From a virus, in the IMG/VR virus record IMGVR_UViG_3300042528_000294, positions 1 to 30,071 of that record: a stretch of DNA of 30,071 bases. The stretch is one strand, 5' to 3'. Below are positions 20,822 through 29,460 of this stretch, piece after piece. Made by a program: the position numbers and the translations under genes. The notes below the pieces were generated by a model that was not told the origin of the DNA, searched no databases, and saw only the letters and a program-made list of their open reading frames with translations. Positions within the stretch are counted from its first letter, which is position 1, and each line of letters opens with the position of its first letter.

Positions 20822-21250
20822 TCATTTCACACTTGCCTGCCAACCTGTATCAAGCCTTCCCATAAAATGAGAGTAATCATCAAGTGTTTGAAAGAATGGC
20901 CCTCTAATTTCACTTGTTCTTACATAAACACCAGAAGAAGCCTTTTTTGATAAATTTATTTCATCAATAACATCCTTCGCAACTTCTAGCATTTTCTGAC
21001 AGCGAGCCGGTCCGTATCCCTTTTCAGAGAAGCATCGAATAATTAAAGCCCCCCTTGGGTAATCCCAAGACCTAGCAAGCGCGGACTCGGTGGTGACACC
21101 AAAAGTTAGGTTGACTCGCACGTATTCTTTTGGTGGATCAGGCGGAACAAAAGTGATGTTGTCGAAATAGACAGGGATTGGAGGAGTTTGCGAATTAAAG
21201 GCGCTGAGCAGTGGGCCTTCAATTTTGGCGCGAATGGCTTGATAGTTCAT
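20822..21250 (-). CDS. Tail terminator protein (DUF4128-like), 142 aa
   Basis: MNYQAIRAKIEGPLLSAFNSQTPPIPVYFDNITF, then 'YVRVNLTFGVTTES' and 'RGALIIRCFSEKGYGPARCQKMLEVAKDVID', ending with 'GPFFQTLDDYSHFMGRLDTGWQA'. This matches the pattern of tail terminator proteins (lambda gpU and DUF4128 type), which cap the finished tail and join it to the head: N-terminal helix, beta strands with R-G-x-L-x-I/V, a long helix, and a last strand. It sits directly before the tube gene. Start ATG overlaps the preceding stop as TAATG. Family naming is by pattern and position. Confidence 0.78.
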   Translation of the reverse strand: MNYQAIRAKIEGPLLSAFNSQTPPIPVYFDNITFVPPDPPKEYVRVNLTFGVTTESALARSWDYPRGALIIRCFSEKGYGPARCQKMLEVAKDVIDEINLSKKASSGVYVRTSEIRGPFFQTLDDYSHFMGRLDTGWQASVK

Positions 21251-21834
21251 TAGAAGCTCCCCACAAAGCCAGCCGAAAAACCCCGACGAAGATCAATTGT
21301 TAGACCTCCGCCTTGGGTGTAGTTGATATACCAATCCAATGGCGCGGTAGCAGTTCCGGGGTTCCCATCTCCAAACCCAGCGCTATCGAGATCGCCTCTC
21401 AAATGCAAAGTCTGATCGCCATTGTCATTAGTCGGCCTCCAGCCAATGAACTTATTTGGCTTTACGGGTTCGCCAACTTGCTTAAAGGTACTTGCCTCCC
21501 CGTCAATGGCAATATTGGCGTGTTCGGATGTATTAATAAATTGAAACTTTTTCACGCCACTGTTAATATATTTTTCGACAGTCGTTACACGAATATCTTT
21601 TTTGCTGTATTCATAAACACCGCCAGATGGACCGGGACCACCACCAGACTGCCCTTCTGGAACGAAGCGCCAGGATGCAGAAAATTCACCACTCCAAGCT
21701 GGTCCTTCTTTTGCCAGTCCATTCATTGTTTCTATCGCCGCACTCTGAATACCTCTAGCCAACTGCCTGTTAATTTGTTTCATCAGGTCATTTGCTATTC
21801 CCTTTTCAAGTCCACCGCCCTTGAATTTGGCCAT
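21250..21834 (-). CDS. Neck / tail completion protein (gp10-like), 194 aa
   Basis: 'MAKFKGGGLEKGIANDLMKQ', then 'RGIQSAAIETMNGLAKEGPAWSGEFSASWRFVP', later 'FINTSEHANIAIDG' and 'RRGFSAGFVGSF' at the end. A helix followed by S/T-G-x-F/L-x-x-S-W and then 'N-x-x-x-Y/H-A' is the usual outline of HK97-gp10-like neck proteins, which sit between the head-closure protein and tail terminator. Location in the connector block (after the 125-aa gene, before the tail terminator) agrees. One base separates it from the upstream stop (TGA-T-ATG). At 194 aa it is somewhat longer than many relatives because of a Gly/Pro-rich loop near residues 60-75. Confidence 0.7.
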   Translation of the reverse strand: MAKFKGGGLEKGIANDLMKQINRQLARGIQSAAIETMNGLAKEGPAWSGEFSASWRFVPEGQSGGGPGPSGGVYEYSKKDIRVTTVEKYINSGVKKFQFINTSEHANIAIDGEASTFKQVGEPVKPNKFIGWRPTNDNGDQTLHLRGDLDSAGFGDGNPGTATAPLDWYINYTQGGGLTIDLRRGFSAGFVGSF

Positions 21835-23123: not shown

Positions 23124-24107
23124 TCAGATGTAGCAGCGCAGCTGCGTGATCCGAATGTTGCGGTTGTCGGTGAACACCTTGCTCCAGTTGGAACCAGTAG
23201 CAAGCTCGGCATTGGAAGGCGAGTTGCCAGCGGCATTACCAACCCAGCTGATACCGTTGGGATGCACCAGATAGTGCGTCCGGTTGATCAGGTAGTCGAT
23301 ACCCTTCAGGGAATCGCGGTCGGTTTCCAGAGGAGACTTGGCAGGAGCAGTTGCAAAAGCAAATGCGCCAGGGCCAAAGAAGTAGGTGTGCAGCACGTCA
23401 GCACCACCAGTGCCAGCGCCAGCATCGACAGGCAGGGTGTCATCAACGAACACCGGGCGACCCAGATAGGTACCCAGCTCAAGGCGTTGAGCGGACAGGC
23501 GGGTGTCGAGCTGAGAGGTGCTGGAAGCAGGAACAATCAGATCCAGCTTCATCAGGGCGTAATACACACGGGAGTGCATCAGAACGCCAGTCAGCTCCTG
23601 ACCTGCATCACCCAGCTTGGCGATAGCATCAACCATCACGCTCTGAGAGAGCTGAGTGGAAGTGCCGCCAGCAGCGTGAGAAGAGGTCAGAGGACCGCCA
23701 GTTGCAAACAGACCCTTGATCACGTTGATCAGGGAAGTTTGCATGTCACGCACCCAGTACTGACCGGTGCGACGAGCAATGGCCTGCATGGGGTCCGAAC
23801 CAGCCAGTTCACCAGCCAGGTCCGAGGCTTTCCAAGCCTTACCACGCATGTTGCGAACGCCGGTCTGCACATCACCAGCCAGAGTGGCGGCGGTCAGACC
23901 AACGGTGTCGTCAAGGATCTCCGAATCGCCGGAGAGATCACCGAAGAAAGGCAGATCAATCGTCTTGCCGCCTTTGGCGAACTCAGCCTGAATAGCGGAG
24001 TTGGTAACCATCAGGCCAGAAGTGACCAGAGCGTTACGGTTTTGCAGCTCCTCCTGCTGGTATTCCAGGAAAAGCTGAGGAATGAAGGGAATGCCAGCGA
24101 GGAGCAT
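23124..24107 (-). CDS. Major capsid protein, HK97 fold, 327 aa
   Basis: 'MLLAGIPFIPQLFLEYQQEELQNRNALVTSGL' (N-arm), 'KTIDLPFFGDLSGDSEILDD', 'GKAWKASDLAGELAGSDPMQAIARRTGQYWVRDMQ' (spine helix), 'GVLMHSRVYYALMKLDLI' and 'YLGRPVFVDDTLPV' (A-domain and P-loop strands), and a C-terminal 'FTDNRNIRITQLRCYI'. The H-S-x-V/A-Y-x-x-L and Y-x-G-x-P-V-x-V-D-D signatures are typical of HK97-type capsid proteins of the 'major capsid protein 13-like' kind. At 327 aa it lacks an obvious N-terminal delta domain, which fits the separate scaffold gene at 26875. A GAGG ribosome binding site lies 8 nt before the ATG and can be masked by leader structure. Followed by a UUCG terminator. High confidence. Confidence 0.93.
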   Translation of the reverse strand: MLLAGIPFIPQLFLEYQQEELQNRNALVTSGLMVTNSAIQAEFAKGGKTIDLPFFGDLSGDSEILDDTVGLTAATLAGDVQTGVRNMRGKAWKASDLAGELAGSDPMQAIARRTGQYWVRDMQTSLINVIKGLFATGGPLTSSHAAGGTSTQLSQSVMVDAIAKLGDAGQELTGVLMHSRVYYALMKLDLIVPASSTSQLDTRLSAQRLELGTYLGRPVFVDDTLPVDAGAGTGGADVLHTYFFGPGAFAFATAPAKSPLETDRDSLKGIDYLINRTHYLVHPNGISWVGNAAGNSPSNAELATGSNWSKVFTDNRNIRITQLRCYI

Positions 24108-24461: not shown

Positions 24462-24490
24462 TTAATAAAAAAGCCCCACCGAAGTGGGGC
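24462..24490 (-). terminator. Intrinsic terminator (UUCG family) after the 96-aa gene
   Basis: Minus-strand RNA GCCCCAC-UUCG-GUGGGGC, a perfect 7-bp stem, followed by UUUUUUAUUAAAUU. It lies 18 nt after the 96-aa gene stop and before the lysine-rich gene. Confidence 0.88.
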
Positions 24491-24508: not shown

Positions 24509-24799
24509 TCAGGCGGTGGTATCCAGGGTCCAACCCTTGCCAGTGGCAACGGCTTTCTCTCCAGTGGTAACAGTGGCGTTGCCAGTGGTGCCGCTGATGT
24601 CCAGGGTTTGAGTCCCGGTCACAGTGGGCAGACCAGCAAACAGTTCCACCAGATTGGTGCGGGTGAAAGCAGCAGGGATCACATAGATGCTGCCGCTGGC
24701 AAGGCCAGCATCGTAGGCAACGCGGAGGGCGGTGATGACCTCTTCAACGGCAGTAGTGACCTGACGGCCAATGACGTTGCGATCAGTTTTGAAAGGCAT
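24509..24799 (-). CDS. Small virion-type protein, 96 aa, function unknown
   Basis: Start chosen at ATG 24799 (MPFKTDRNVIGRQVTTAVEEVITALRVA). A GTG at 24826 would add nine residues, but it lies in the inverted repeat of the divergent region. The N-terminal half looks like a helix. The C-terminal half, 'TLDISGTTGNATVTTGEKAVATGKGWTLDTTA', resembles the end of BspA-like or leucine-rich phage repeats, which often finish in 'A-x-A-K-G-W-T-V'. It is the first minus-strand gene after the plus-strand island and is followed by a strong terminator, so it may be an abundantly made single product. Its place ahead of the capsid gene could suit a head decoration protein. I do not recognise the family with certainty. 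Confidence 0.7.
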   Translation of the reverse strand: MPFKTDRNVIGRQVTTAVEEVITALRVAYDAGLASGSIYVIPAAFTRTNLVELFAGLPTVTGTQTLDISGTTGNATVTTGEKAVATGKGWTLDTTA

Positions 24800-24817
24800 G
24801 GCGAGTGAGGGTGAGCG

Positions 24818-24885
24818 CTCTGACACATGCTAAGTACCCAGGGAAGAATTAGTCTTTACGAGATTCAAGCAAAACCGTGTCAGAG
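24818..24885. repeat. 9-bp inverted repeat bracketing the divergent intergenic region
   Basis: CTCTGACAC at 24818-24826 and its reverse complement GTGTCAGAG at 24877-24885 flank the 50-nt space between the minus-strand 96-aa gene and the plus-strand 63-aa gene. Each arm carries a GTG followed by TCA-GAG, so both strands would begin M-S-E-R if the GTG codons were used. Could be an operator shared by divergent promoters. Confidence 0.5.
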
Positions 24886-25068
24886 AGAAGAACCTGGGAC
24901 TCTCCAGTACGACAACCATGGAATCCCATCATTCATCATTTGCTAAAAGCGGTCGATACGCATAATCAGCTTTATTTCCGCACCGGAGATCTGTGGCATT
25001 TGCAAAAAGCGAGAGAAGCGAGGCTTTATGTAATAGAGCTTAAGGATTGGATAAAAAAACAGGAGTAG
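24877..25068 (+). CDS. Short conserved phage protein, 63 aa
   Basis: GTG start, then MSERRTWDSPVRQPWNPIIHHLLKAVDTHNQL, 'YFRTGDLWHLQKAREARLYVIELKDWIKKQE'. It is helical with many Trp/His/Leu. I recall similar short proteins (W-N-P/K-x-I...L-L-K-A-V-D-x-H...W-H-x-x-K-A-x-x-L-R-x-Y-V-x-E-L-K) in marine phages, always without known function. It is the first gene of the plus-strand island. No ATG is available near the 5' end, so GTG is used. Function unknown. Confidence 0.65.
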   Translation: MSERRTWDSPVRQPWNPIIHHLLKAVDTHNQLYFRTGDLWHLQKAREARLYVIELKDWIKKQE

Positions 25069-25130
25069 AAAGCAATAAAAAACAAGATAACGGGAGCTAT
25101 GTCTTTTTGTATTAATTGTCCCTTAAATTC

Positions 25131-25159
25131 TTGACATCACTACAGTGCCTGTGTAAGCC
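25131..25159 (+). promoter_or_regulatory. Candidate promoter before the metallophosphoesterase gene
   Basis: A perfect -35-like TTGACA at 25131-25136 is followed after 17 nt by TAAGCC preceded by TG, a weak -10. It lies 13 nt before the ATG at 25172, so any transcript would have almost no leader. A small inverted repeat ACAG-TGC-CTGT sits in the spacer (25142-25152). The rest of the 103-nt gap shows an AT-rich stretch and nothing else. Confidence 0.35.
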
Positions 25160-25171
25160 GCTACCAACGGC

Positions 25172-26026
25172 ATGGCGATCACCACTAAGCGGCTGTCGCC
25201 AGAGCTAATAGAGGTACGCATCCCATATACAAGCGTCAAGGACGAAGCGGTATTCCTCTTGGCGTCTGACATTCATCTAGATAATCCAAAGTGCAGCAGG
25301 AAATTATTTTTTCAGCATCTTGATGAATGTAGAGCGCTGGGCGGACATGCACTTATGTTTGGCGATGTGCTCTGCTTGATGCAGGGCAAAAAAGACAGAA
25401 GAGGCAGCAAGGGTGATATTAGGCCAGAGCACCTAGGCGGAAACTACTTTGATCTCGTATTCCGTGAGTCGGCTGATCTACTAAAGCCATATGGCGACAT
25501 GATCATAATGATGGGAGACGGCAATCATGAAACAGCAGTTTTAAGCAATCAAGAGATTGACCCACTTGAAAACGTAGTTCGGTTAATGCGTAACGATGGC
25601 GCAATTACCGAGCACATGGGATACCAAGGATTTATTCGATTTGTTTTTTATCGCAAAGATAGCGAGGGAGTAAGAAGGTCAACTTTGTTTTTTCATCATG
25701 GCGCTTGGGGTGGAATCATCACAAAGGGAACAATGGGCGGTGGCCGCTACGCATCAATTGCACCCGATGCTGATGTAATCGTCAACGGACACAATCACGA
25801 AAGAAGCATTGTTGCGCATCCCTGCTATCGAATCTCGGAAAACGGCAAAGCATGGGTCGAGCAACGTTGGCATCTACAAACAGGAACCTATAAGCAGGAA
25901 TTTGGTGGAACTGGTGGATGGGCAGTGGAGAGAATAGTTATGCCCAAGTCACTCGGCGGCATTTGGTTGACACTGCGCCCAAGAGCCAGGGGCGGTGTCG
26001 ATGTCACTTGCAAGCCAACGCTATGA
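25172..26026 (+). CDS. Calcineurin-like metallophosphoesterase, 284 aa
   Basis: The metal-binding motifs of the superfamily appear in order: D33-I-H35 ('ASDIHLD'), G64-D65 ('MFGDVL'), G117-N118-H119-E120, H175/H176 ('LFFHHGAWGG') and G206-H207-N208-H209. All the ligands expected for a two-metal phosphoesterase are present, so it is probably active on phosphodiesters or phosphomonoesters. The substrate cannot be told. Phage members have been suggested to act on nucleotides, RNA ends or DNA. No signal peptide, so cytoplasmic. The stop overlaps the next ATG as ATGA. It is on the opposite strand to the structural genes and grouped with an HNH nuclease, which suggests nucleic-acid processing and not virion structure. 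Confidence 0.9.
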   Translation: MAITTKRLSPELIEVRIPYTSVKDEAVFLLASDIHLDNPKCSRKLFFQHLDECRALGGHALMFGDVLCLMQGKKDRRGSKGDIRPEHLGGNYFDLVFRESADLLKPYGDMIIMMGDGNHETAVLSNQEIDPLENVVRLMRNDGAITEHMGYQGFIRFVFYRKDSEGVRRSTLFFHHGAWGGIITKGTMGGGRYASIAPDADVIVNGHNHERSIVAHPCYRISENGKAWVEQRWHLQTGTYKQEFGGTGGWAVERIVMPKSLGGIWLTLRPRARGGVDVTCKPTL

Positions 26027-26205
26027 AACAGTACATCTTGGAACTTGAATACACAATCATCGTGGAAAGCCAGGATGAAGATCCACAGGAAGTATCAGAC
26101 AACTTTGTGGCGCGACTCACTGAGTTAGCGCCATCCAACGATCACATCCTGGGCCTTTCGGTTCAGGTGCTACCCATCCCTGAGTTGCGTGGATCACTCG
26201 ATTGA
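26023..26205 (+). CDS. Small protein of unknown function, 60 aa
   Basis: Start chosen at ATG 26023, which overlaps the metallophosphoesterase stop as ATGA; a longer open frame upstream lies inside that gene and is ignored. The protein reads MKQYILELEYTIIVESQDED, then 'VSDNFVARLTELAPSNDHI' and 'LSVQVLPIPELRGSLD'. A strand-helix-strand pattern is likely. It overlaps the start of the HNH gene by 17 nt, so all three plus-strand genes here form one operon. I do not recognise a family. It may be a small partner of one of the two enzymes. Confidence 0.65.
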   Translation: MKQYILELEYTIIVESQDEDPQEVSDNFVARLTELAPSNDHILGLSVQVLPIPELRGSLD

Positions 26206-26500
26206 TGGCTCAAACCTCATCCACAAGCGCAATGCAAAACAAAAATTCAGACAGGAGATCTTTGAGGCTTGGAAGCACGAGTGCGCTTATTGCGGCATCT
26301 CGGCAGACACGCTAGATCACGTCAAGCCACGTCACAAGGGTGGTATAACAAATACCGAAAACCTAGTGCCTGCGTGCAAAAACTGCAATCGCAGAAAAGG
26401 TAGCGAAGAATGGAGGGAATGGTTTAACAAGCAGAACTCATGGAACGAGGACAGGGAATCAAGAATCGCTAAATGGCTGCTGCAGACAAAATTAAATTAA
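26189..26500 (+). CDS. HNH endonuclease, 103 aa
   Basis: 'CAYC' (C32, C35), 'LDHVKPRHKGG' (D43-H44), 'NLVPACKNCNRRKG' (N58, C63, C66, N67). This is the complete HNH beta-beta-alpha-metal fold with a structural zinc site from two CxxC pairs. Start is GTG at 26189; the nearby ATG at 26205 is in another frame. HNH proteins of this size near a terminase gene are known to help DNA packaging nicking or cutting in several phages; others are free-standing homing nucleases. Here it is on the opposite strand from the terminase and ends exactly next to the stop of the minus-strand 93-aa gene. Either role is possible. Confidence 0.9.
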   Translation: MDHSIDGSNLIHKRNAKQKFRQEIFEAWKHECAYCGISADTLDHVKPRHKGGITNTENLVPACKNCNRRKGSEEWREWFNKQNSWNEDRESRIAKWLLQTKLN

Positions 26501-26782
26501 CTACCACTTAACTTTATCCGCCCAATAGGCTGCACTTAATTTTCCTTTTGCAATATTTTCTGCATGTCTCGCCTTAAAAGAGCGACGACGTGCTTTTTCT
26601 TTCTCTGTGTCAGGGCTGCTGCCAGCACCACTTACGCCCTGCTGCCCGAAACGAATCAACTTAACCTTGTCGCCTTCTTTTGCAACAACAACGTGCGACT
26701 TAGTTGGATGATTGGGAGTGCGCTTCGGTTTGTTGTATCCAGAAACACCAGCTCTTTCAAGACGAGGATCCTTCTTTTTCAT
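26501..26782 (-). CDS. Small conserved basic phage protein (DUF6321-like), 93 aa
   Basis: MKKKDPRLERAGVSGYNKPK, 'RTPNHPTKSHVVVAKEGDK', 'VKLIRFGQQGVSGAGSS', and 'SFKARHAENIAKGKLSAAYWADKVKW'. This is a distinctive family seen across many phages and annotated as a domain of unknown function (I believe DUF6321). The strong conservation of K-P-K-R-T-P...K-S-H-V-V...L-I-R-F-G-Q-Q-G and of the C-terminal S-A-A-Y-W-x-x-K-x-K-W suggests a nucleic-acid-related or head-associated role. It is downstream of the scaffold terminator and meets the HNH gene stop-to-stop with no gap. Function unknown. Confidence 0.75.
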   Translation of the reverse strand: MKKKDPRLERAGVSGYNKPKRTPNHPTKSHVVVAKEGDKVKLIRFGQQGVSGAGSSPDTEKEKARRRSFKARHAENIAKGKLSAAYWADKVKW

Positions 26783-26812: not shown

Positions 26813-26848
26813 CAATAAAAAACCTCCTGAAGCACGCAGCTCAGGAGG
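26813..26848 (-). terminator. Intrinsic terminator after the scaffold gene
   Basis: Minus-strand CCTCCTGA ... TCAGGAGG, a perfect 8-bp stem with a 10-nt loop, followed by TTTTTTATTG. It lies 27 nt after the scaffold stop and blocks read-through into the 93-aa gene and the opposite-strand island. The 91-nt gap holds little else. Confidence 0.9.
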
Positions 26849-26874
26849 CCCGTCCGTCATCATCCGACAACAGG

Positions 26875-27717
26875 TTACATCGCCTGCAGCGCTCGGCCAA
26901 GCACCGGATCAAGTTTTCCAGCAAGACGTGCTTCGTTCATCAGGCGCTTTGCCTTGTCGGGATCCTTCTGCATCATCTCAGCGGCCTTGGTGGCATTCAC
27001 GCTGTCCTTGCTGAAGGGGTTGTTGGAGTAGGTCGAAGTCGCAGCGCGAGCAGTCGTCATCCCCGACCCAGTTGCACCGCTACCGGCGAAGTAAACAGCA
27101 AACTCTTCGTCATCACGCAGTTTTGTAACGGCGTCACGCAAAGAAACCGGATCATCCTCCGAACCAAACACAACTGTGCTTTCGTCATCAAGAAGACGAA
27201 ACTTCTCCTTCATCAACTTATAAAGATGAGAAGGACGACGGCACTCAGCTTTTGAAAGCTCGTCGGTCACAAAACGCTCAAGCTTGCTTTCACGACGCTT
27301 CTCGCGTTCTTGATTGCGCTCTTGCTCAAGCTGCTCATTCGTTTTGCGAAGATCGCTCAACTCTTTACGCAACGAAGCAAACTGCGCCTTCACCGCTTCG
27401 TTCATCGCATCAGAGGGCACTTGACCCTGCTGGGGCTGAACAGCTTGCTGTGCGGAAGACTCTTCTTCACCTGACCTAGCGGGCTTCAGGCCAGCAATGC
27501 GCTCGGCAAGAGCGTCCTCGTCAAGCTCATCGGTCAGCTCGATACCCGCAACTTTCAAGAAAGTATCGACGGTTTTCTTTTTCTTGAGATCCTTGAGCAA
27601 TCCTTGATTTGTAGCTTTTAACTTGGTGCTTTCACTTTCAAGTGCGTCTGCCTTCTTTTGAAGAGCTTGCACAAGCGCGAGAGCGTCTTCAAGAGTTTCC
27701 GGGGTGTGTTCGGTCAC
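26875..27717 (-). CDS. Scaffold / head assembly protein, 280 aa
   Basis: GTG start at 27717. Residues 1-50 'ALALVQALQKKADALESEST' form a coiled coil, then an acidic linker 'ELTDELDEDALAERIAGLKP' and a Gln/Pro/Ser-rich stretch. A second long coiled coil lies at about 115-160 ('LRKELSDLRKTNEQLEQERN'). The C-terminus is basic/helical 'MMQKDPDKAKRLMNEARLAGKL'. Long charged coiled coils with disordered links, encoded between portal and capsid genes, are characteristic of scaffolding proteins that guide capsid assembly and leave before packaging. No protease motif is seen. The gene lies 21 nt after the portal stop and has its own terminator, consistent with its own expression level. Confidence 0.82.
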   Translation of the reverse strand: MTEHTPETLEDALALVQALQKKADALESESTKLKATNQGLLKDLKKKKTVDTFLKVAGIELTDELDEDALAERIAGLKPARSGEEESSAQQAVQPQQGQVPSDAMNEAVKAQFASLRKELSDLRKTNEQLEQERNQEREKRRESKLERFVTDELSKAECRRPSHLYKLMKEKFRLLDDESTVVFGSEDDPVSLRDAVTKLRDDEEFAVYFAGSGATGSGMTTARAATSTYSNNPFSKDSVNATKAAEMMQKDPDKAKRLMNEARLAGKLDPVLGRALQAM

Positions 27718-27738: not shown

Positions 27739-29460
27739 TTAAATAGTAGCACCGTCTGCCTCGTTTAGCTCAACAGAAGCCTCCAGCGCCTCAAGGTCAC
27801 GGCCTTCGCTCATCGGGGACGTGTTATCAACTGGGATCTGCCCACGATTTGCAACCTGCGCCCCCGCACCAACGCCAAGCTGGCGAGCGGTTTCCGTGCC
27901 CGTCAGACCCATATCAGCAAGAAGATCCTTAACCGCAAAATCAGGTAGCCCTTCAAACATCTCGCCCGCTTCAAGCATTCGCAGGAACATTTCAATAGTA
28001 ATGGCGTTGCTGTCCTTAAACAAAGAACTGAGCGCCATGACTTGCTGAGAATGCAGCTTAACGGGGATGAAGTTCTTGCTAATCGTTACGCGCACTTCAG
28101 GAATTTGACGATAGGCGGACGCATAAAGCAATGCTCGATTGATCGCGTCCTCAAGGCTCTGCACCAGCACAGCGAGCTGCGAATCACTCTGAGAGCGGTC
28201 CAGGAGCTTCGCAAAGCCGCTTTCCGCCTGCGTCTTGCCCGTTGTCATGGCAACTGCCGCAAGGCGCTCCATGGCCTGCTCAATGCGCCTCAGATTCTCC
28301 AGCGTGACCGATGCGCCCTCCATGGAGGCACTCATCAGATCGAACTTGGCATCAGGGTTCTGCGAGAACAAGGCACGACCGGCACCCGCCTTGATCTCAT
28401 CGTCGGGACGCACGCCCGTACCGGTCAGAATCGGCGATGAAGTGAGGTGGATGGTTTCTGCAAGGTCAGCAGAGATGCTCCAATGATTCAAGTTAAGACG
28501 TGCAATATCAAAAAGTAGGGGGCGGGCACGGAAAAATGCTTCTTTCTTGCCACCAAAAACGGGCACAAACGGAATAAACGGGATCGAAAGATACGTTGTA
28601 TCTTCAAGCGTGTACTTATCTACGTCGCCAGGCGTGTTTATTTTTGCGTACAGGCGGCAACGAACACGTTGTGTTGAGGTCGTGGCTTCAGGCTGATCAG
28701 ATAGCTCAGAAACGCTGTTATCTGCAAGATTCTGAATATCATAAACACGCACTGCAGGAATAACTTCCTCAAAAAATTCGTTCTGCTCACTTTGGCGACG
28801 GATCTCGGTCTTAACTCGCAAGTAGGTCGGGAATGCGCCGAATATATTCTGCGCCCCTACTTGTGCGTTAAATACGTCATAGCGACATTCAAGCACTTGC
28901 TCCATGCGCATTAGCACAAAGTAAGGGCGTGGATTAAGCAGACGCTCCTCAGCGGCGCTCAGATCCGGCGGAAGCTTGGGGTACTCCACCCAAATTGCCG
29001 ACACACCACCATCCAGCGCCTCCGTAAAGGCTTCCTTGGCGAAGGACAGCATCGAGTGACCCTCTAAGTCAACATCCTCAAAAAAATTGCCCCACTCGCT
29101 AGGGATTGTTTCAGGGGTGCCAACACCCTTGCGCAGCGCTGTCCCGCAAACAAGATCTCTCAGATGACAGTAATAATTTTGAAAACTACTTTGCGCACGA
29201 GTTTTGCGAACTTCATAGCTCTTCTGCTCTTCTAGATAATCCTGGGGGATATATTCGTCTGATGCCTCACAAAGGTAGAACTCAGGCAGCGTGCAAAAAC
29301 GAATCGGCGCAAGCCGTGAAAATTGCTCAGCCTGTTCCAGGGCGTAGGCGTCAACCCCTACAACCTCTTCAAACGCCTGCTCATACTCAGGGAAGCGACG
29401 CTCAAAAGGCAACGTCAGGTTGTCACTCGTTGGAACAAGCGAGTTGGGGACGATTGCCAC
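27739..29460 (-). CDS. Portal protein (DUF4055-like), 573 aa
   Basis: GTG start at 29460. The central block 'ARLNLNHWSISADLAETIHLTSSPILTGTG' is characteristic of DUF4055-type portals, and the helical C-terminal half with 'LDRSQSDSQLAVLVQSLEDAINRALLYAS' fits the stem-wing part of portals. N-terminal 'EYEQAFEEVVGVDAYALEQ' and 'YCHLRDLVCGTALRKG' match the start of the family. It would form the dodecameric ring through which DNA is packaged and ejected. It follows the terminase and precedes the scaffold, the normal order. The last 30 residues (ASVELNEADGATI) are acidic and probably disordered. Confidence 0.88.
   Translation of the reverse strand: MAIVPNSLVPTSDNLTLPFERRFPEYEQAFEEVVGVDAYALEQAEQFSRLAPIRFCTLPEFYLCEASDEYIPQDYLEEQKSYEVRKTRAQSSFQNYYCHLRDLVCGTALRKGVGTPETIPSEWGNFFEDVDLEGHSMLSFAKEAFTEALDGGVSAIWVEYPKLPPDLSAAEERLLNPRPYFVLMRMEQVLECRYDVFNAQVGAQNIFGAFPTYLRVKTEIRRQSEQNEFFEEVIPAVRVYDIQNLADNSVSELSDQPEATTSTQRVRCRLYAKINTPGDVDKYTLEDTTYLSIPFIPFVPVFGGKKEAFFRARPLLFDIARLNLNHWSISADLAETIHLTSSPILTGTGVRPDDEIKAGAGRALFSQNPDAKFDLMSASMEGASVTLENLRRIEQAMERLAAVAMTTGKTQAESGFAKLLDRSQSDSQLAVLVQSLEDAINRALLYASAYRQIPEVRVTISKNFIPVKLHSQQVMALSSLFKDSNAITIEMFLRMLEAGEMFEGLPDFAVKDLLADMGLTGTETARQLGVGAGAQVANRGQIPVDNTSPMSEGRDLEALEASVELNEADGATI

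Follow-up and report, generated by a model that had tools for sequence, protein, structure and literature searches.

Genes for nucleases have been described near essential head and terminase genes of phages, with different nuclease genes at the same place, and also at the boundaries of exchange between phages (Barth et al. 2023, PMC10448857). The window analysed here, a 30,071-base virus record, resembles the free-standing homing endonuclease genes (HEGs) and "HEG-islands" of that report in having an HNH gene among head genes, interchanging nucleases and relatives with an empty site, and differs from them in that its cassette carries a metallophosphoesterase (MPE) gene, a small gene (s60) and a leader as cargo, and in that its HNH protein is small and fixed in the donor phages. 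An intact HEG-class nuclease domain and a precise insertion into an empty site, by which homing endonucleases are recognised, were both found. The cassette had been suggested in a first-pass annotation to be a moron, and like phage morons it is an accessory insertion between conserved morphogenetic genes; unlike them, it has no recognisable promoter/terminator pair of its own, and its base composition is not deviant (46-49 % G+C, compared with 49 % in the window). The packaging HNH proteins of the HK97 gp74 type are encoded by genes adjoining terminase or cos, whereas the HNH genes of the window and of the donors do not adjoin terminase.

The nearest described MPE family is that of phrog_7339 and Bacillus phage Staley, which is calcineurin-like by profile as is the window MPE (hhalign 99.2 %, family profile A3), and in Staley an annotated HNH gene directly follows the MPE gene; the two families share only 24 % identity, and a signature, DxHLDNP...LMQGKxDRRGSK, is particular to that of the window. 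The bacterial MPE of the Lhr cluster is said, in 2019 work of Ejaz et al., to be a manganese-dependent single-strand DNA endonuclease, and is presumably also a member of COG1407. It is likened to the window MPE by description only, as a metallophosphoesterase acting on DNA, which for the window protein is a prediction; in contrast to that cluster, the annotated genes inspected around phage MPEs include none named as an Lhr helicase. The MPEs of Geobacillus phages are assigned to COG1407 (PMC10459684). A search of open-licence PMC found no published description of the MPE-s60-HNH cassette, which is widespread in one viral collection (303 MPE relatives) and is hardly matched in isolated phages, where three records match the MPE, none of them closely (best 35 % identity).

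Head operon and opposite-strand genes

The minus strand of the window carries a siphovirus-type head operon comprising a terminase fragment and genes for portal, scaffold, g93, dec105, g62 and the major capsid protein (MCP). Among named phages the MCP has matches only at less than 60 % identity, cyanophages S-H1 and KBS-S-2A being two of them. Four plus-strand genes (s63, MPE, s60 and HNH) lie between g93 and dec105, and the opposite-strand arrangement described in the first-pass annotation was confirmed. The features of the region are as follows.

23124-24107, minus strand, MCP gene (phrog_247)
24473..24490, minus strand, terminator-like hairpin 3' of dec105, with a 7-pair stem and a T-run
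24509-24826, minus strand, dec105
24877-25068, plus strand, s63, encoding 63 amino acids
25069..25148, plus strand, left end of the insertion, about 80 nt, without a match to donors or empty relatives
25149..25171, plus strand, conserved leader, ending TGTGTAAGCCGCTACCAACGGC directly 5' of the MPE start codon, with a GCCG/CGGC stem
25172-26026, plus strand, gene for the MPE, a calcineurin-like metallophosphoesterase of 284 amino acids
26023-26205, plus strand, s60, encoding 60 amino acids and overlapping both the MPE and HNH genes
26189-26500, plus strand, gene for an HNH endonuclease of 103 amino acids
26501-26782, minus strand, g93, a conserved small head-operon gene (phrog_7595, E 6.6e-41)
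26820..26851, minus strand, terminator-like hairpin closing the scaffold gene, with a 12-pair stem and a T-run
26875-27717, minus strand, scaffold gene (phrog_206)
27739-29460, minus strand, portal gene (phrog_145)

The overlaps noted earlier for the last three plus-strand genes are both present, as the ATGA shared by MPE and s60 (26023-26026) and the 17 nt shared by s60 and HNH (26189-26205), and the HNH stop codon TAA (26498-26500) is flush with the stop codon of g93 (26501-26503). ORF length alone is no evidence for genes in this region, since antisense ORFs as long as 282 codons run across the MCP gene; gene status is based on homologues together with synonymous change far above replacement change. 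The plus-strand genes had been regarded as their own transcription unit, bounded on one side by a terminator closing the scaffold transcript. The scaffold terminator is present as a 12-bp hairpin with T-run (26851-26820), whereas a separate transcription unit was rejected as an established feature, because consensus scans of the region returned two promoter-like sites against 2.5 in shuffles and two terminator-like sites against 2.7, and neither kind of site on the plus strand 3' of HNH.

Insertion at the g93-s63 site

Scans with the MCP and scaffold identified 98 loci (L083-L180) with the same head operon. In the nearest relatives spanning the site (L083, L085, L087 and L163-L166), whose g93 is 94-99 % identical to that of the window, the stop codons of g93 and s63 are about 10 bp apart with nothing between them; in L083 and other empty-site relatives the MCP is 100 %, the scaffold 98 % and g93 98-99 % identical. 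Because these nearest relatives keep s63 and lack the cassette, s63 is old and MPE-s60-HNH is an insertion, which comprises leader, MPE, s60 and HNH, is approximately 1.43 kb long (about 25069-26500) and lies between the two stop codons. No MPE was detected anywhere in the records of 25 relatives, some of them fragments, in a search with the window's own record as positive control, and the ten matches listed, of 24 records, from a blastn search of a phage collection with the region cover only the g93 part. The left end of the insertion (25069..25148) had no blastn-short match among all the loci collected and is absent from L083. The insertion is recent, and since the closest relatives lack the cassette and many other phages carry it elsewhere, it is most likely a travelling accessory unit that does not belong to the capsid programme. 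The earlier suggestion of carriage as an accessory insertion agrees with the empty site in near-identical relatives and with the occurrence of the unit elsewhere in other phages.

The flanks of the insertion are 81-91 % identical to L083, compared with 99-100 % in the MCP, and similar dips occur elsewhere in the alignment, so that co-conversion of the flanks is not demonstrated by it. Another mosaic patch is the segment of the window at 21250-21750, which could not be aligned with L083 although the two are near-identical otherwise.

The first-pass annotation had treated the four plus-strand genes as a single island, a grouping that was rejected since s63 is present as the next gene after g93 in relatives without the cassette and has a separate, older history. 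Antisense s63 homologues follow g93 in 51 of the 75 contigs spanning the site and form a clear protein family with the conserved motif ERRTWDTPxRExWNPxI..LKAIDxHN; in comparison with L083, s63 has a pS of 0.54 and a pN of 0.05. Pfam and NCBIfam searches with s63 gave nothing above chance level. By its distribution, s63 is an old antisense gene that belongs to the head operon itself and lies outside the inserted cassette. The conservation of such a small antisense gene within the capsid operons of many related phages is a separate observation.

The cassette in other phages

The MPE scan of one viral collection returned 303 relatives, of which the best 80 were analysed. MPE, s60 and HNH occur together, in the same order and strand, in 72 of these best 80 contigs, with s60 homologues 77-85 % identical, while seven carry MPE-HNH without s60 and one ends just after the MPE; head genes are present at none of these 80 MPE loci. 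The three genes are therefore not rarely found together, and their proposed co-occurrence is upheld. An endolysin gene is located just upstream of the MPE in 147 of 150 overlapping loci from both MPE scans, a convergent sigma factor gene is the usual downstream neighbour of the cassette in donors, and the cassette precedes a minor tail gene in three loci (two contigs) of the 150. A scan with the sigma gene, independent of the MPE, was examined in its best 80 contigs, of which 54 contain MPE and HNH, 20 contain HNH without an intact MPE and six are too short; among these best 80, HNH is thus present at its home site in all 74 contigs with room for it. The s60 gene is kept in nine of the 20 without an intact MPE, one of which (L311) has an MPE deletion scar in which the leader and the first MPE codons are fused into s60. 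Another contig, L201, contains MPE and leader without HNH, and a scan with its sigma gene gave 34 contigs, of which 31 continue for 1.1 kb or more past the gene; in this sister lineage an MPE was found in one of the 31 and HNH in none. From these counts HNH is constant in one lineage, in which MPE and s60 are variably present, and those of the L201 lineage imply that leader and MPE can move on their own. The idea of a two-enzyme module accordingly stands as far as a recurrent pair is concerned, whereas an obligate MPE-HNH pair was rejected, given the 20 of 74 sigma-locus contigs with HNH and no intact MPE and the reverse case of L201.

The MPE start is immediately preceded by some 20 nucleotides, GTGTAAGCCGCTACCAACGGC, that are nearly invariant in donors. 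The leader core occurs once per locus in 67 loci, and the leader of the window is identical to the commonest donor form, although the synonymous sites of the MPE gene are saturated. With small changes it is also found in L046/L235, in a tail operon, and in the HNH-less L201. The GCCG/CGGC stem is kept, while the letters and the length of the loop vary; one variant (two loci) breaks a stem pair, and three variants (six loci) are without the leader. Conservation over a distance that saturates the synonymous sites of MPE is evidence for a functional cis element, and the leader may thus be such an element, most simply one of translation initiation.

The metal-binding motifs of the MPE class are DxH, GD, GNH(D/E), H and GHxH. 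A complete phosphoesterase active site had been noted in the window protein, and a motif search bears this out, with DxH...GD...GNHE...H...GHxH complete in the window MPE and in 61 of 61 distinct homologues. The window MPE matches phrog_7339 ("DNA repair exonuclease") at E 2.6e-13. The founder of the Staley-type family matches PF00149, and profile A3 of that family matches PolD DP1 (E 7.2e-6), SbcD (0.01) and, more weakly, Mre11. The profile of the window family itself (A1) had no matches by sequence in the PDB, and Pfam and NCBIfam gave nothing above chance level for the MPE; an AlphaFold2 model from a shallow alignment (pLDDT 51) was too poor for use, as was the Foldseek search made with it. 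By family, the MPE is likely to be a DNA phosphodiesterase. Compared with five donors it has a pS of 0.76-0.84, at saturation, and a pN of 0.09-0.11. Among the Staley-type relatives, 14 regions were looked at from 27 matching records, and an annotated HNH gene lies within three genes downstream of the MPE in three Geobacillus phages; for most of the distant relatives inspected no HNH gene is annotated nearby, and in several the MPE gene is near endolysin or terL. A viral scan with a Rhodobacteraceae MPE gave no relatives. The sole yield of a genome scan was an MPE relative (42 %) in a Cesiribacteraceae prophage (L433:4004-4867), which is preceded by a gene that we take, from its sequence, to be endolysin-like, and no HNH was recognised among the listed ORFs of this prophage.

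The first-pass description of a complete HNH nuclease is supported by a match to PF01844 of 48.3 bits (E 1.1e-12; cut-off 21.4), and the protein also matches PDB entry 4h9d (E 1.9e-7) and contains the motif DHV.PRH.GG...NLVPAC..CNRRK. It is a minimal 103-residue domain protein in which no extra DNA-binding domain was found. Family searches with s60 gave no match better than E 0.33, those of Pfam and NCBIfam yielding nothing above chance level.

Nuclease genes at the site and origin of the cassette

HNH genes at the g93 site were located by tblastn in 75 contigs, not independent lineages, whose sequence runs from g93 into the gene after it. The distance to the next gene is at most 150 nt in 59 of these and more than 150 nt in 16, and nine of the 16 large gaps hold an ORF of HNH/endonuclease-VII type from two families other than that of the window HNH, no nuclease being recognised in the remaining seven. 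The first type occurs in six contigs (L086, L093, L094, L102, L154=L171 and L172) and the second in three (L129, L130 and L148); in L132 and L135, where no g93 was recognised, a second-type gene occupies the equivalent position. The first-type gene is embedded in the 3' end of g93 (L086:569-1222, L093:1806-2483, L102:345-998): g93 has acquired a new tail, and its native tail, in the form specific to that lineage, now closes the nuclease ORF. As read from the ORFs, this exchange of tails is a homing-type signature. Together with the window HNH, which is on the opposite strand while the others are on the head-gene strand, this short head-operon site is, by sequence family, occupied by HNH genes of three unrelated families.

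The empty site, the unit elsewhere and the unrelated HNH genes at the same place establish an insertion and a hotspot. We give an even chance to a joint explanation of the insertion, an HNH-made break and a DNA-acting MPE, in which an accessory DNA-processing cassette was captured at an HNH-endonuclease hotspot. Free-standing endonuclease genes would have the g93-s63 site as their target, and repair of a break made there by the HNH protein, or by an HNH of the same locus, would bring the cassette in, with MPE and s60 carried as cargo. The MPE would belong to the SbcD/Mre11/DP1 branch of metal-dependent phosphodiesterases and would trim or degrade DNA ends; it may serve the phage late in infection, given that it is normally encoded directly behind endolysin, where the late operon ends. 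That the HNH protein drove the insertion is suggested by analogy with the other HNH genes of the site and with published nuclease genes at exchange boundaries. Against this are its small size, its opposite orientation, the movement of MPE without HNH in L201 and its fixation at the home sigma locus, which makes it look like a core gene and not a spreading selfish gene. The same fixation and the L201 case favour a passive moron, entered by illegitimate or homologous recombination and kept for a benefit of MPE or s60, the HNH being a core nuclease of the donor; strong purifying selection on the MPE (pN 0.1 against pS 0.8), with its motifs intact throughout, points the same way. This account leaves the three HNH families at one short site unexplained, and we consider it possible, and nearly as good as HNH-driven capture. 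A composite mobile element, in which HNH breaks DNA, MPE processes the ends for homology-free entry and a GCCG-loop-CGGC-ATG hairpin controls MPE translation at each new location, is unlikely.

A packaging aid had also been proposed, and MPE or HNH might work alongside terminase on concatemers or on the ends of the DNA in packaging or head maturation, as the position of distant MPE relatives between terL and portal (Eggerthella EL753P1, Moorella MTATph1, Bacillus KLEB27-3) or near terL (Stills and Jenst) could indicate. The nearest relatives, however, have the same head genes without MPE, s60 or HNH, portal, scaffold and g93 separate the window HNH from the terminase gene over 3 kb, and the distance to terL in donors is about 15 kb (G029, G030) or 27 kb (G026), so that the proposal is not supported and such a role appears quite improbable. 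The suggestion of a defence-related set likewise found no backing, as MPE, s60 and s63 match no PADLOC defence family and HNH matches PADLOC models only in their HNH region; an anti-defence or host-DNA degradation set, to which two nuclease-type enzymes and the late position after endolysin in donors would be suited, has no link to a defence system and is very unlikely. The junction was seen in one contig only, among the best 80 of 303 MPE relatives, as would be expected of an assembly chimera of two phages. The junctions nevertheless fall at the stop codons of g93 and s63, the G+C content of the cassette fits the window and not most donors examined (MPE 53-59 % in seven, 49 % in L046), and in comparisons of the MPE with five donors about 80 % of synonymous sites are different, which makes a chimera hardly credible.

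The cassette is found as a unit at different genomic places, and one short head-operon site has been entered by three unrelated nuclease families; a role of small HNH nucleases in carrying cargo genes from phage to phage is directly testable on this defined pair of empty and occupied sites. Elsewhere in the head operons, a 314-residue HNH-type gene lies on the opposite strand in the terminase-portal gap (L095:1100-2044, also L089 and L096), and in one locus (L092) an HNH gene follows g142.
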